Part shown: positions 119 to 18,678 of the stretch, piece by piece | How positions within the stretch are numbered: position 1 is the first letter of the stretch | How the letters are laid out: each line of letters opens with the position of its first letter | The notes under the pieces: model-generated | What the model was told of the DNA's origin: nothing | The model's input: only the letters and a program-made list of their open reading frames with translations | Databases searched by the model: none | Translations under genes and position numbers: made by a program | DNA from: a virus | Direction: 5' to 3' (one strand) | Length of the DNA stretch: 21,498 nt | Virus record (IMG/VR): IMGVR_UViG_3300032073_000312 | Location: 1 to 21,498 of that record

Positions 119-352
119 TTAAATATCTGTTAAACGGGGATTATTATCATTAAGAGTGCGAATCCAATTCTTAACAGAACGGACATGGCAACCCATCTCA
201 TTAGAGACAAGACTTGCAGGTTCACCATTCATAACACGGCTAGCTGCAACGATTCGCTCATAATTAGTCCAACTACGATTACTTGTTGTAAAGGGTAAGC
301 CCCGAACAAGGGTGTAGTTTGAACCCTTAGATAGTTGATTTATTAAAGCCAT
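119..352 (-). CDS. small helix-turn-helix DNA-binding protein
   Basis: A 77-residue protein. Residues about 31-68 fit a homeodomain-like helix-turn-helix: YERIVAASRVMNGEPASLVS, a turn at NEMGCHVRS, then the recognition helix VKNWIRTL. This pattern is common in transposase-type and resolvase-type HTH domains and in small phage regulators. No catalytic domain follows, so it is a stand-alone DNA binder, probably a regulator. The start is supported by AAGGAG seven bases upstream of the ATG. A perfect inverted repeat, AGACCA-TG-TGGTCT, lies 28-41 bases upstream of the ATG and could be its own operator. A hairpin follows the stop codon. The family is not identified more closely; a role as a small terminase-like DNA-binding subunit cannot be excluded. 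Confidence 0.7.
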   Translation of the reverse strand: MALINQLSKGSNYTLVRGLPFTTSNRSWTNYERIVAASRVMNGEPASLVSNEMGCHVRSVKNWIRTLNDNNPRLTDI

Positions 353-379
353 AAGAGATCTCCTTATTTATTGGCGTTT

Positions 380-393
380 AGACCATGTGGTCT
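380..393. promoter_or_regulatory. inverted repeat upstream of the HTH gene, candidate operator
   Basis: AGACCA and TGGTCT are perfect inverted arms separated by two bases, centred about 34 bases upstream of the HTH start codon. The position suits autoregulation by that protein. It could equally be an RNA hairpin at the end of the structured region that follows upstream. Confidence 0.35.
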
Positions 394-399
394 GAAGTG

Positions 400-872
400 C
401 TCTGTAATACTCTTGGGAGAAAAAGAATTACAGAGTCAATCACAACACACGGTTGTTGAGCAGTTTTTTACAGTGTTACTCAGCACTTTCTCCTTGTAAA
501 GCTGTTTTGAACTGATACCTTACGTATCTCATTCTCCCAACAGCGGGGAATTTCTCTAAGGTCAGGGGTGCTTCTCAGGAACAAATTGCCTCCACATTCT
601 CCCCTGACACTAACGCAACTTAGATTGCGGCTTACTCGCTTCGGCTGTTTTTTTACGCTGCGACACGCTTCCATCATCGGTGCTTACGCCCACCGACTAG
701 GAAAGTAGCTAACTCTCCGTGGCTCCTCTATTAAGCAGAATAGGCAAACAAAACTATGTGATACCGTTTGGATACTTTTGCTAGTTCTATCACTAAACTA
801 ATTACAGGTTATAAGCTTATCGGTAATCAGCCGCACTTATAAGGAGTAATCTGCCTATTCAACATAATAGAG
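400..872 (-). ncRNA. candidate large structured RNA, class unknown
   Basis: This gene-free stretch lies between the 48-aa gene (stop at 883) and the HTH gene (start at 352) and is locally richer in GC than its surroundings. It holds many complementary segments. 726-733 pairs with 865-872 (8 bp), continued after a symmetric 4x4 internal loop by 738-746 with 852-860 (9 bp). This closes a domain containing 758-763/788-793. Further hairpins are 700-706/712-718, 677-682/691-696, 614-618/625-629, 561-568/601-608 (8 bp), 514-518/524-528, 481-489/498-504, 443-447/454-458 and 400-408/427-435 (9 bp). The 700-718 hairpin has a G-U pair only when read on the minus strand (an A-C mismatch on the plus strand), and the 677-696 hairpin can close on a GUAA tetraloop there, so minus-strand transcription is favoured. 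Ends are uncertain. I could not match it to tmRNA, RNase P, a group I intron or a tRNA. Confidence 0.55.
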
Positions 873-882
873 AAGATTGATG

Positions 883-1029
883 TTATTGTGTTGAGTCTTT
901 AATCGCAAAAGCTTTATCTTTTTTGCGACTTCGTTTAGCTTTGCTTCCTTTTTTAGGAGGCACAACCTGTGGCGGCTTGCGGTTTTGTAACATAGCTTTA
1001 GCCACAGGGTTTATAACACCGACTTTCAT
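883..1029 (-). CDS. small basic conserved-type phage protein (48 aa)
   Basis: A 48-residue protein beginning MKVGVINPVAKAMLQNRKPP and ending in a lysine/arginine-rich tail (PPKKGSKAKRSRKKDKAFA). The pattern NPVAKA...QVVPPKK recalls a family of very short basic proteins found in many T7-like and marine phages, usually of unknown function. That is from memory and not verified. The ATG overlaps the stop of the preceding 57-aa gene as ATGA, which implies translational coupling. The basic character suggests nucleic-acid binding, but nothing shows this. The structured RNA begins within about ten bases of its stop codon. Confidence 0.6.
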   Translation of the reverse strand: MKVGVINPVAKAMLQNRKPPQVVPPKKGSKAKRSRKKDKAFAIKDSTQ

Positions 1030-14298: not shown

Positions 14299-17200
14299 CT
14301 AAGGCCCAATTCCATACCAGTCTTGTCCTTGTTTCAAGGGAGCTAGTATGTCTTTTCGTGTTATCTTATCGGGAGGATCAATTAGGCCAAGCTCTATTGC
14401 TTCTGCTAAGATTCTCTTATAAGTCTTATTAGATAAACCCTGTCTACGCATTTCTTTTAAGGTTTTTCTTATTGTTTCCCCTTCAAGAGCATCAGCATAG
14501 ATGGATCTTAAAGCGTCTTTTGCTCTTTGTGCCTCACCAATATTGGTAAAAAAAGCATCGTGAATAGTACCAGTTTCCACGTTGTTCTTCCGACCCCAAA
14601 GGTGGAAGCGTCTCACAATAACTGCGTCATTACTGTGATTACCGTTAACACCTAATCCAATAGACGCATTTGCAACAGAAGACTTTCCTAAAAGTTTTCC
14701 ATCAGGTGCGCTAGATTCATAGATGTTGGCAATTCTTCGTCCTGTAACTGAATCGGTAAATTCAATTCTTTCTTGTAATTTAGGACGATATCTCTGTGTT
14801 ATTATTTTCCCGTCAAAAGTGACCCAAGGTATATCAACCTTTTCAGTTTCTAATACAAAAGACTTAGCTGTTCTTTTCCAGAAATTAATAAAATTATCAG
14901 TTACTGGCGCACGTTCAGCTAAATTTTTAGACATTATTTTTGAAATTTCAGTAAACTCTTTTGGGCCTATTAAGCCTCTCCTAGAGTTCATAAGTTTCTC
15001 AACAAAGTCTGCTGTATCGGGATGAACCTCTTGAGCTTGTTTTAATAGTGTACGACCTAGTGGTTCGTTGTTATTTATCATCTCAATTAATTCTGTTCTA
15101 AAACTCTTTAACTCGTTACTGGTATTTAAAGCACCTATTCTTTCTGATAGCTTTATTTTACCATCAATTATTCTAAGTTGTTCACTTAGATTTGATTTAG
15201 TAACTGTCGTATATCCTTTGCTGTTTAAAACTTTAGAAAGTTTGTCTGCAATATTTGCGGTTTTTGTTGCCTCTCCTGCACCGTAGAAAGATACCATGTT
15301 TTGTGCTTTTGCAGCCTTTGCAAGATCTTCCCAAGTTAAATTGGCGTCCCTTAAAGCAGGTATCTTTAAAAAGTCAGGATCATTTACTGTGTCTATTGCA
15401 ACTAAATCATATAGTCTATTTTTTTGATTTGTTGCCAAAACATTAGATGCCATAGATACTTTTCTGTCTCCTGTTGAAAGCCCTATTATTTGAGCGCCTG
15501 AAGATGAAGCATCGTTTTCTATCATTAACTTTGTTTTGTAATTAGACAATAAATTTGTATTTCTAAAGTCTCCATTAACATGATCATTAACTCTTTTGTA
15601 TTCTAAAGCCATTCGTGCTAATTTTGGAACTTCTGGCCCTTCTAACTCGCGAATAAGAGGATGTTCAAGAAACTCCCTCATTCTTCTATCTCTTTGAGTT
15701 TTGTTTTGAAGAAGACCACCTAGCTCTAATATCTTAGATTCATTCCTTTTGAATATCTCTCGTCTACCTGCTTGAGTTAATGCTTCAGTTCCTGGCCCTA
15801 TCATAGCTCCTAGTTGAATTTTTAATTCATCTACAGCCAAAGGACTCATAGATACTGACTTGCCAGAATTTAAAAAAGGACGTACCATTTCTCCCCCAGT
15901 TGGGGTTAGGTAGCCTCTATGATAAACTCTTCCACGAGAATCTAAAAAAGCTAAAGTCTTAAAATTTTTACCTCGTTGTCTATGCCACTTAGCAGTAGAC
16001 ATCATTCCATATCCTTGTTCTCCACGATTAAGGACTTCATGCCTAAAACTATTAATAGAGTCATAGTATTTTGAGTTACCTCTTGGGTCTCGAAATCTAA
16101 CAATATCATCCATGAAATCAAAAAATTCTGGGTCTACACTGTATTCGCTGTTCATAACATGGTTCATCATGTTAGCCATATCAGCATCTATTTGTTTAGG
16201 ATTATAGTCAGGAAATTTTTCCGCTGAGATTAAAGGAATACCTGTGTCTTGTCCTCTGGCATTAACATACGTTTTTTTATTTGCTTTTACATAAAGACGA
16301 TCTCGATCAGAAACCACCCCTATTCTACGAGCAATAACTGTTCTACGCTCAGCCTCTTGAAGTCTTAATAAGCCCTTGTCTATTACAGTTACTTCTCTTG
16401 ATATTGTATCAGCCCAACCTCCAGAAGCCCTTCCTGTTTCAAGGTCTAGAACACCTCTCCTAGTTTTGCCTCTAAATTGAACTCTTATCATGTTTTGGTC
16501 AACTAAAAATTTTAATATTTTAGAGCCTTCTGCATGATTACTTTTTAAAGTATGTTTAGTAAAAGGAATTATGCTTTTAAAGTCTTCAGAAAATTTTTTA
16601 CCGATATTTATAGCAAGAGCATCATAGTCTGTAGATTGACCACTTGCAATTAACTTAACAGACTTAGTAATGCTATCTAAAGCTTTATCATCAAATATTT
16701 TTGAAGTAGGTTTTTTCTTTGCATGAAAAAATTCTAAGTCTAATATCCTTCTTATAGACTCCCTGCCCCTAGCGTAATTTAATACAGTCCAGTTATCAGA
16801 GGGGTCTCTGTTATATTTTTTTACAAAAGAAGTGTATTCCTTATTAAAGGGAATATCTTTTTTAATTCTTTTTATAACGTCTTTTTTAGATTGATATTTT
16901 GAACTAAATTTTTGGAAGTAAGATCTTAGTGGCGCTCTTCCTGAAAGATATAATTTAGTTGCTAATTTTTTTCCTTCAGTGGATCTCCAATTATCAATAT
17001 ACCTTTGGTCTTTTAATAGGTTTTTTTGTATATCGTTAAAGTTGTAGTACTGACCCATTATTTGAACTTTAGGCGTGTCTGAGCCTTTAGATAAATAACT
17101 TACAAACATTTGGGATTTTTGTCTAGACCTTGTGTCTAGTAGTCTAGAAACGTTTTGAACTGCAAATCTGTTTTCAGCTCTGACTACAGAAGAAAAATCA

Positions 17201-18678
17201 CTCCAAGGTTTTTTATCTTTGGCGTATCTTTCAAATACAACTCGTAGGTTTTCTATTACTACTGTTTGTTGATTTAAAGATATTTTGTCATCTAAACCAG
17301 CGGCTGTACTTTGAATAAAATCTTTTTGATCTAAAGTTAGTAGTTTAGAATTACGCATAAAATCAATTCGTTCTTGGTAGAGATTAAAGTCTGGGTCATA
17401 TAAGTTATTATTTTTAACTTCACCAGATAGAGGGTCTACAGAAAAATTTCTTTCGTCAAATTCGTTACCAACTCTTCTTCGTGACGCTTGTTTTCCTACT
17501 AAAGTTGTACCTTTGTAGTCAGTTAAACTCATTGTCTTACTAAAGTCATCAGAGTCTAATAAGTATAGCTGTCTTAGATCGGCTTTGTGTTTTGGATTTT
17601 TTATTAAATAATTTGGTGTTTTAGCATTAACTTGAATGCCTACTTCTCTTAATTTTTGTTTTGGAGAATATACAGAAGTAATTAAAGCTGCTTTATTTCT
17701 TAGTGCCTGTATACTCAATCCTTTTCCTTTAGGAGTAACAAACTCACTTGCTTTTATTTTTCCCTGTCTAAACAAATTTGCAGCATCTTCAGACCCTAAC
17801 ATTTTTGTTTGTACAATCATAGATTGGGTTTTTAACCACTCACCAAAAGACTTTATTTTAGAAGGAAGACCATTTAAGTTTAAAATGTCTTTTTTCTTAA
17901 GAACGGATTTCTTTATTCGGGGGTCGGAGACAGGAAGCATATCTTCTTTTGAGGCTATGACGGGAACCATACTGGATCTACAAGACCAATGAAGAGGTGG
18001 CATATATCGCTTATCGCCTACTTCATAAACTTTTCCATTGTGATGAGTACAAATAGGACTAGTTCTAGAGTCTAGTATTGCAGTAAACATATATCCTTTT
18101 ATAACGCCTTTGTTATTTTCCATAACTTTATCTAAAGCTAATGCCTGTGTACTTGTTATAGAAGTTCTGGTCAAGGTTCTAGCTTGATGCTCAGTTATTT
18201 TAGTAGTTTTTAAAACGTCAGATATAATTTCATTTTGGCTTAAGCCTTTGGCTAAACCCGCCTTAACTTTAGTTTGTATTCTAATAAGTTCACCAGAAGA
18301 TATATTTCGTAAATTCTTCTTAAGGGTTTTTGTACCCTTTATATTTGGGCCTGTTATCTCGCCAATTAATTCTTTTGTTTTAGGTTTCTTAACTTTATAA
18401 AAGTCTTTTACCCCTTTAAATAAATTATCTGTATGAAAGTCTAATTGGGATGTAGAAAATTCTCTAAGGCTTGTTTCAGAATGTGATAAAAGTTCTTTAC
18501 CAAATCTGTTTATTTCTGGTTTAACATCAGATCTTATATTTTTTCTTAGTATTCCTGTAAGCTTGTTTCTATGACGTTTTATTATTCTTCTGTTTTGGAG
18601 TTGGACGCCTTCTTCATAGAGCCGAACATCTCCCATATGATCTACAATGCGATCAAAAATTCCATCATTTACACTCAT
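14299..18678 (-). CDS. MuF minor head protein fused to a single-subunit RNA polymerase
   Basis: A 1459-residue protein. Residues about 130-240 are a phage Mu F/SPP1 gp7-like head domain, with RTLTRTSITSTQALALDKVM (168-187) and the C/H cluster DSRTSPICTHHNGKVY...PPLHWSCRSSMVP (203-239). Residues about 450-1459 carry single-subunit polymerase signatures. FLDSRGRVYHRGYLTPTGGE (911-930) corresponds to T7 DWRGRVY, with R917 at T7 R425. ENDASSSGAQ (1054-1063) is motif A, with D1056 at T7 D537. K1124 and Y1132-G1133 are motif B (T7 K631, Y639-G640). TIHDAFF (1371-1377) is motif C, with D1374 at T7 D812. Both metal-binding aspartates are present, so activity is likely. The arginine expected four residues before the motif B lysine is Ala1120, with K1121 beside it. 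Residues 250-450 are an unassigned linker. The order portal, this gene, scaffold, capsid matches the SPP1 gp7 position, implying a virion protein at the portal. The start follows AGAGGG. Confidence 0.9.
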   Translation of the reverse strand: MSVNDGIFDRIVDHMGDVRLYEEGVQLQNRRIIKRHRNKLTGILRKNIRSDVKPEINRFGKELLSHSETSLREFSTSQLDFHTDNLFKGVKDFYKVKKPKTKELIGEITGPNIKGTKTLKKNLRNISSGELIRIQTKVKAGLAKGLSQNEIISDVLKTTKITEHQARTLTRTSITSTQALALDKVMENNKGVIKGYMFTAILDSRTSPICTHHNGKVYEVGDKRYMPPLHWSCRSSMVPVIASKEDMLPVSDPRIKKSVLKKKDILNLNGLPSKIKSFGEWLKTQSMIVQTKMLGSEDAANLFRQGKIKASEFVTPKGKGLSIQALRNKAALITSVYSPKQKLREVGIQVNAKTPNYLIKNPKHKADLRQLYLLDSDDFSKTMSLTDYKGTTLVGKQASRRRVGNEFDERNFSVDPLSGEVKNNNLYDPDFNLYQERIDFMRNSKLLTLDQKDFIQSTAAGLDDKISLNQQTVVIENLRVVFERYAKDKKPWSDFSSVVRAENRFAVQNVSRLLDTRSRQKSQMFVSYLSKGSDTPKVQIMGQYYNFNDIQKNLLKDQRYIDNWRSTEGKKLATKLYLSGRAPLRSYFQKFSSKYQSKKDVIKRIKKDIPFNKEYTSFVKKYNRDPSDNWTVLNYARGRESIRRILDLEFFHAKKKPTSKIFDDKALDSITKSVKLIASGQSTDYDALAINIGKKFSEDFKSIIPFTKHTLKSNHAEGSKILKFLVDQNMIRVQFRGKTRRGVLDLETGRASGGWADTISREVTVIDKGLLRLQEAERRTVIARRIGVVSDRDRLYVKANKKTYVNARGQDTGIPLISAEKFPDYNPKQIDADMANMMNHVMNSEYSVDPEFFDFMDDIVRFRDPRGNSKYYDSINSFRHEVLNRGEQGYGMMSTAKWHRQRGKNFKTLAFLDSRGRVYHRGYLTPTGGEMVRPFLNSGKSVSMSPLAVDELKIQLGAMIGPGTEALTQAGRREIFKRNESKILELGGLLQNKTQRDRRMREFLEHPLIRELEGPEVPKLARMALEYKRVNDHVNGDFRNTNLLSNYKTKLMIENDASSSGAQIIGLSTGDRKVSMASNVLATNQKNRLYDLVAIDTVNDPDFLKIPALRDANLTWEDLAKAAKAQNMVSFYGAGEATKTANIADKLSKVLNSKGYTTVTKSNLSEQLRIIDGKIKLSERIGALNTSNELKSFRTELIEMINNNEPLGRTLLKQAQEVHPDTADFVEKLMNSRRGLIGPKEFTEISKIMSKNLAERAPVTDNFINFWKRTAKSFVLETEKVDIPWVTFDGKIITQRYRPKLQERIEFTDSVTGRRIANIYESSAPDGKLLGKSSVANASIGLGVNGNHSNDAVIVRRFHLWGRKNNVETGTIHDAFFTNIGEAQRAKDALRSIYADALEGETIRKTLKEMRRQGLSNKTYKRILAEAIELGLIDPPDKITRKDILAPLKQGQDWYGIGP

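Follow-up and report, generated by a model that had tools for sequence, protein, structure and literature searches.

The window, by which we mean the whole 21.5 kb stretch of DNA analysed here, is a fragment of a virus of bacteria. It has its structural genes in the same order as Bacteriophage DSS3_VP1, and the two capsid proteins share 60% identity. A non-coding gap of 530 bases (353–882) lies between two minus-strand open reading frames (ORFs) at 883–1029 and 119–352. All major genes of the window run on the minus strand, which is therefore the likely transcript strand of the spacer. The features of the locus are the following.

883–1029, minus strand: 48-aa basic ORF, directly upstream of the RNA region.
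729–882, minus strand: window-specific 5′ domain, in which the helix 726–746/852–872 closes two arms; predicted by single-sequence folding only.
553–728, minus strand: conserved core RNA with P1–P6 and a pseudoknot; 165 bits (E = 6e-46) with model R1, of which the window is a seed.
700–718, minus strand: P1 hairpin GGAGAGU/ACUUUCC with loop UAGCU; changes on both sides in six of seven pairs.
677–696, minus strand: P2 hairpin UCGGUG/CACCGA, preceded by an invariant CUAG; 100% paired, one covarying pair.
655–668, minus strand: P3 hairpin GCGU/GCGU, with a run of seven A after it; 100% paired.
630–639, minus strand: P3a, a 3 bp hairpin around AGUA; 3/3 pairs covary, 98% paired.
614–629, minus strand: P4 hairpin CGCAA/UUGCG; 4/5 pairs covary.
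619–624, minus strand: 5′ pseudoknot strand UCUAAG, which is the P4 loop; pairs with 555–560.
561–608, minus strand: P5 helix GUCAGGGG/CCCCUGAC, with covarying pairs.
577–591, minus strand: P6, enclosed by P5, as is the conserved GUGGAG...GAAGC internal loop.
555–560, minus strand: 3′ pseudoknot strand CUUAGA, pairing with 619–624; 4/6 pairs covary, 91% paired.
396–552, minus strand: 3′ domain peculiar to the window, containing the hairpin CUCUGUAAU/AUUACAGAG; predicted by single-sequence folding only.
353–396, minus strand: HTH-gene leader with hairpin AGACCACAUGGUCU and GCCAAUAAAUAAGGAGAUCUC; kept at 89% identity by the closest relatives, which are without the RNA.
119–352, minus strand: HTH gene ORF, the other border of the gap.

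The original prediction was of strong structure in the gap that separates the 48-aa gene from the HTH gene, and of a preferred strand. Both claims are borne out by folding energy: the minus strand of 353–885 folds at −160.1 kcal/mol (z = −4.50, 0/100 shuffles equally good), compared with −143.1 kcal/mol (z = −2.40, 1/100) for the plus strand. The GC content at 500–800 (0.46–0.50) exceeds that of the surrounding DNA (0.35–0.42), as had been stated, and the proposed outer helix 726–746/852–872 is present, with 17 pairs around a symmetric 4×4 loop. The 5′ domain (723–882) is the strongest part of the spacer, with z = −5.61 on the minus and −2.98 on the plus strand; no homologue of 729–882 was seen, and the 3′ arm of its closing helix extends over the outermost bases of the core (726–728). 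The 3′ domain (396–552) has z = −2.17 on the minus strand and about −2.1 on both strands. By energy alone the core (553–728) is not significant (z = −0.83), and comparative evidence was therefore needed.

Relatives were obtained by a degenerate scan with the translation of an ORF internal to the spacer (480–677), which yielded eight virus loci sharing a conserved stretch. At the DNA level these are 77–84% identical to the window over 148–162 bases and carry frame-breaking indels; because indels between homologues shift the internal reading frame, a protein gene at 480–677 was rejected as an explanation of the core. Patterns derived from the core yielded further loci, including two contigs of a Bacteroidetes metagenome-assembled genome (MAG) that resemble the same phages. 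A covariance model, R1, was built from 14 sequences including the window, so that the seeds match by construction, and it scores 25 loci (virus contigs and one mixed bin) at 95–203 bits. L193, outside the seeds, is an independent distant member (35.6 bits, E = 7e-9). The homologues of the core are L143–L153, L157–L169 and L193, whereas L154–L156, and most of the coding sequences that fit the P6 pattern, seem to be chance matches. Across 296 genomes of one bacterial phylum, R1 matched only the MAG with the phage contigs, and blastn against 50,697 phage records gave no match to the spacer.

In alignment A5, which was fitted to the model and whose sequences are related, 93.3% of cells are paired and 23 of 41 pairs show changes on both sides; the covariation score is 0.438, whereas shuffles gave 0.196 (0/500 reached the observed score) and sliding gave no more than 0.112. 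A hand-curated set, aligned by eye, gave 96.4% paired and compensatory changes in 25 of 36 pairs. Eight helices are supported, among them the pseudoknot that the P4 loop forms with the 3′ end, and the stems change with compensation rather than being broken uncompensated. Invariant columns make up 57% of the unpaired but 32% of the paired positions, and the invariant unpaired segments are CUAG, AUGA..GAAG, A7-YAGCCGA, AGUA and GUGGAG...GAAGC. On this comparative evidence the core is almost certainly an RNA family whose fold has been kept by compensating mutations. The large structured phage RNA originally proposed is thus backed comparatively over its central ~176 nt, whereas the extent of ~490 nt rests on the folding energy of one sequence; the comparatively supported part (553–728) differs from the helix stressed before.

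The core is arranged in the order P1, CUAG, P2, P3, seven A, YAGCCGA, P3a with its AGUA loop, P4, P5 around P6, and the 3′ strand. The GUAA loop described earlier for the minus strand does exist, in the P2 hairpin, but is not conserved among relatives. P3 reads GCGG/CCGC and GUGU/GCAC in relatives. P3a, of which two of three pairs form in the window, was first detected by RNAalifold on a MAFFT alignment made without structure, and not by hand. The pseudoknot is UCUAAG/CUUAGA in the window, AUCAAG/CUUGAU in L143, UUAGG/CCUAA in L157 and GCUAGG/CCUAGC in L167; the window belongs to the family both by this pairing and by its R1 score, the latter as a seed. A long form with ~65 extra bases inside P5 occurs at six loci (L158, L159, L164, L165, L166 and L169).

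The family is previously uncatalogued and has no match in Rfam, in keeping with the earlier failure to assign it to a known RNA. The Rfam 15 covariance scan of the window RNA gave no match at gathering and no relevant one at E ≤ 1, and that of the homologues searched gave none except one sub-threshold snoRNA-like match away from the RNA. No described phage RNA of this kind was found in the literature covered, which was partial. GOLLD and ROOL resemble the family in being non-coding, phage-borne and elaborately folded with pseudoknots. In GOLLD, expression rises during lysis. Scans with the GOLLD and ROOL covariance models gave no match in the window, whether at gathering or at E ≤ 1, and none in the homologues, and the core family is therefore not a member of either. 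The core of ~175 nt is also far shorter: one solved ROOL has 659 nt and many GOLLDs exceed 800 nt (PMC12286853). GOLLD is said to lie frequently near tRNA islands (PMC12286853), whereas the present family sits behind the stop codons of operons; a tRNA search of the window found none.

The RNA is single-copy in each record, and its occurrence is patchy. R1 found it neither in 22 window-related contigs nor in DSS3_VP1 and DSS3_PM1 (one match in PM1, E = 0.63, is not significant). Relatives that carry the neighbouring 57-aa and HTH genes have a short spacer at the same place, without the RNA. Related Naomviridae-like contigs were rejected as homologues of the spacer: the RNA is missing from them, and the HTH leader is all that they retain. 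Judged from these sequences, the leader (353–396) marks the boundary of the extra DNA, and its AAUAAAUAAGGAGAUCUC part stays conserved even in front of a different gene. The 48-aa ORF has a weakly similar counterpart (score 46, 1/1000 shuffles equally good) in L115, where a short basic ORF occupies the corresponding position and abuts the HTH start. Between L145 and the window the RNA is 84% identical, and otherwise only an endolysin (38% identical) is common to both; more may be shared, since the contigs are fragments. This sporadic occurrence across several unrelated phage groups looks like that of an RNA gene passed between phages.

The RNA usually starts ~15 nt or less from a stop codon (about 0–15 nt in some ten relatives); in the window the stop codon of the 48-aa ORF marks the start of the RNA region, and the extra 5′ domain precedes the core. 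Downstream follows either an intrinsic terminator (L145, L158, L159, L161, L162 and L168; directly so in L161, L162 and L168) or an unrelated gene (L143, L144, L157, L160 and L167), whose start codon is ~15–35 nt away. The place behind a stop codon and the terminators that follow would both suit a cis-acting element of the 3′ untranslated region (UTR), in which the knotted fold blocks 3′-to-5′ exonucleases and stabilizes the upstream message. We rank this as the strongest rival, although we judge it unlikely: such an element needs only a stable fold, whereas the unpaired bases are the most conserved and remain so across unrelated upstream genes, and in the five loci where a coding gene comes next the RNA is not at a 3′ end. 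Those same five loci, with the RNA just ahead of a start codon, are what a cis-regulatory leader (a riboswitch or attenuator) of the downstream gene would predict. Yet the downstream genes are unrelated among carriers, and elsewhere, the window included, terminators or ~150 nt of other structure intervene, so that a leader appears distinctly improbable.

The neighbouring genes differ from one group of carriers to another while the RNA and its unpaired segments stay, which argues against a cis element, and for this reason we prefer a trans-acting RNA with a conserved partner. Specifically, we give about an even chance to the reading that the core is an accessory RNA gene which acts in trans and moves horizontally. 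The RNA would be read as part of an operon transcript, would fold directly behind the stop codon, where it may be trimmed or terminated, and would then accumulate as a stable species. Hairpins P1, P2, P3 and P3a, and then the pairing of the P4 loop with the 3′ end after P5, give one compact fold. Its invariant unpaired segments may contact a partner from the host or the phage; the most probable partner is a protein or ribonucleoprotein that is widespread in the hosts. Between phages the RNA would move as an optional module. Three points weigh against this trans-acting reading: a prediction limited to sigma-70-type promoters, as distinct from phage-polymerase ones, gave none on the minus strand ahead of the RNA; a cis role in 3′ UTRs also predicts the place behind stop codons; and blastn found no carrier of the core among the 50,697 phage records.

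Two more specific functions were weighed. A packaging RNA acting with terminase is suggested by a terminase small subunit gene (PF03592) within ~3 kb of the RNA in several lineages (L157-like, L159/L165/L143 and L167), the terS homologues being the main protein common to them; L135 has a weak match to phrog_74 (terminase small subunit). The packaging RNA of phi29 type, which is required for DNA packaging, is likewise a phage RNA of similar length, and a terminase gene is near in some carriers. The terminase of the carriers is of the small-subunit type, unlike that of phi29, and the Rfam scans gave no match of any kind in the window, phi29-type packaging RNA included. Neither the window ORFs searched nor the ORFs listed close to the RNA in L193 include a recognizable terminase small subunit; because the link is not seen in the window, it was not adopted as the main reading, and we consider a packaging role very unlikely. 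A compact pseudoknotted fold with conserved unpaired bases would also suit a self-cleaving or self-processing ribozyme, but there is no match to Rfam ribozyme families and no cleavage-site context was recognized, and to this explanation we attach hardly any weight.

Structured phage RNAs without a known job, such as GOLLD and ROOL, are an open problem, and we know of no job for the likewise structured T4 RNAs C and D. The present family offers a compact fold backed by covariation and small enough for probing and pull-down. Since the RNA persists across unrelated phages while genes turn over, its partner should be conserved and findable.

Partial likenesses to other phage RNAs were seen. A hairpin module, GAAGCCGGG(U)CG(A)CUACCGGUAA, links T4 RNA D (species 2 RNA), in Gaprivervirus VR25, with L193; 0/2000 shuffles were as good for the hairpin GAAGCCGGG/CUACCGGUAA shared by VR25 and L193, in a comparison made after it had been noticed. 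A GAAG-hairpin-UAA module is common to L193 and to T4 RNA D with its relatives (L171, 1054–1172, minus strand). The remaining architecture of T4 RNA D differs from that of the window family, and it was rejected as a member, with only the P3-like hairpin in common and a best R1 score of 7.4 bits, which is not significant. An RNA of Streptomyces phages (Bmoc, 93031–93263, beside tRNA-Met) has the GUGGAGC-GNRA-GCNNRGAAGC module in common (E = 0.01); it too was rejected, since one module is shared and the full R1 model fails. Because neither passes the full model, both likenesses are leads only. The Streptomyces region (L170, 2327–2559, beside tRNA-Met) is conserved and non-coding in 63 Streptomyces phage records, where it is unannotated or called a hypothetical protein.

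We regard it as a speculative and rather improbable idea that phages have a broad class of RNAs, so far uncatalogued, which are built from modules and all bind one host component during takeover. Two modules, GAAG-hairpin-UAA (P3) and GUGGAGC-GNRA-GAAGC (P6), would be reused in such a class, whose members would be the window family, T4 RNA D and unannotated RNAs of other phages, those of Streptomyces among them. If real, the class would also offer a way to learn what T4 RNA D does. The GUGGAGC-GNRA-GCNNRGAAGC motif also occurs in apparently non-coding DNA of unrelated phages (L173, L178, L183, L184, L190 and L191), beside tRNAs in L173 and L190 and, across these loci, often inside complementary flanks; these motif-only loci are not significant with R1 and were not accepted as members.

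Elsewhere in the window, a 1459-aa protein (14299–18678, minus strand) carries a Mu F-like head morphogenesis domain (PF04233) at its N terminus and a single-subunit RNA polymerase domain (PF00940, E = 2e-5) at its C terminus. It is possibly a fusion of a virion RNA polymerase with a minor head protein. Relatives also encode a polymerase of 722 aa as a separate protein, downstream of the HTH gene.
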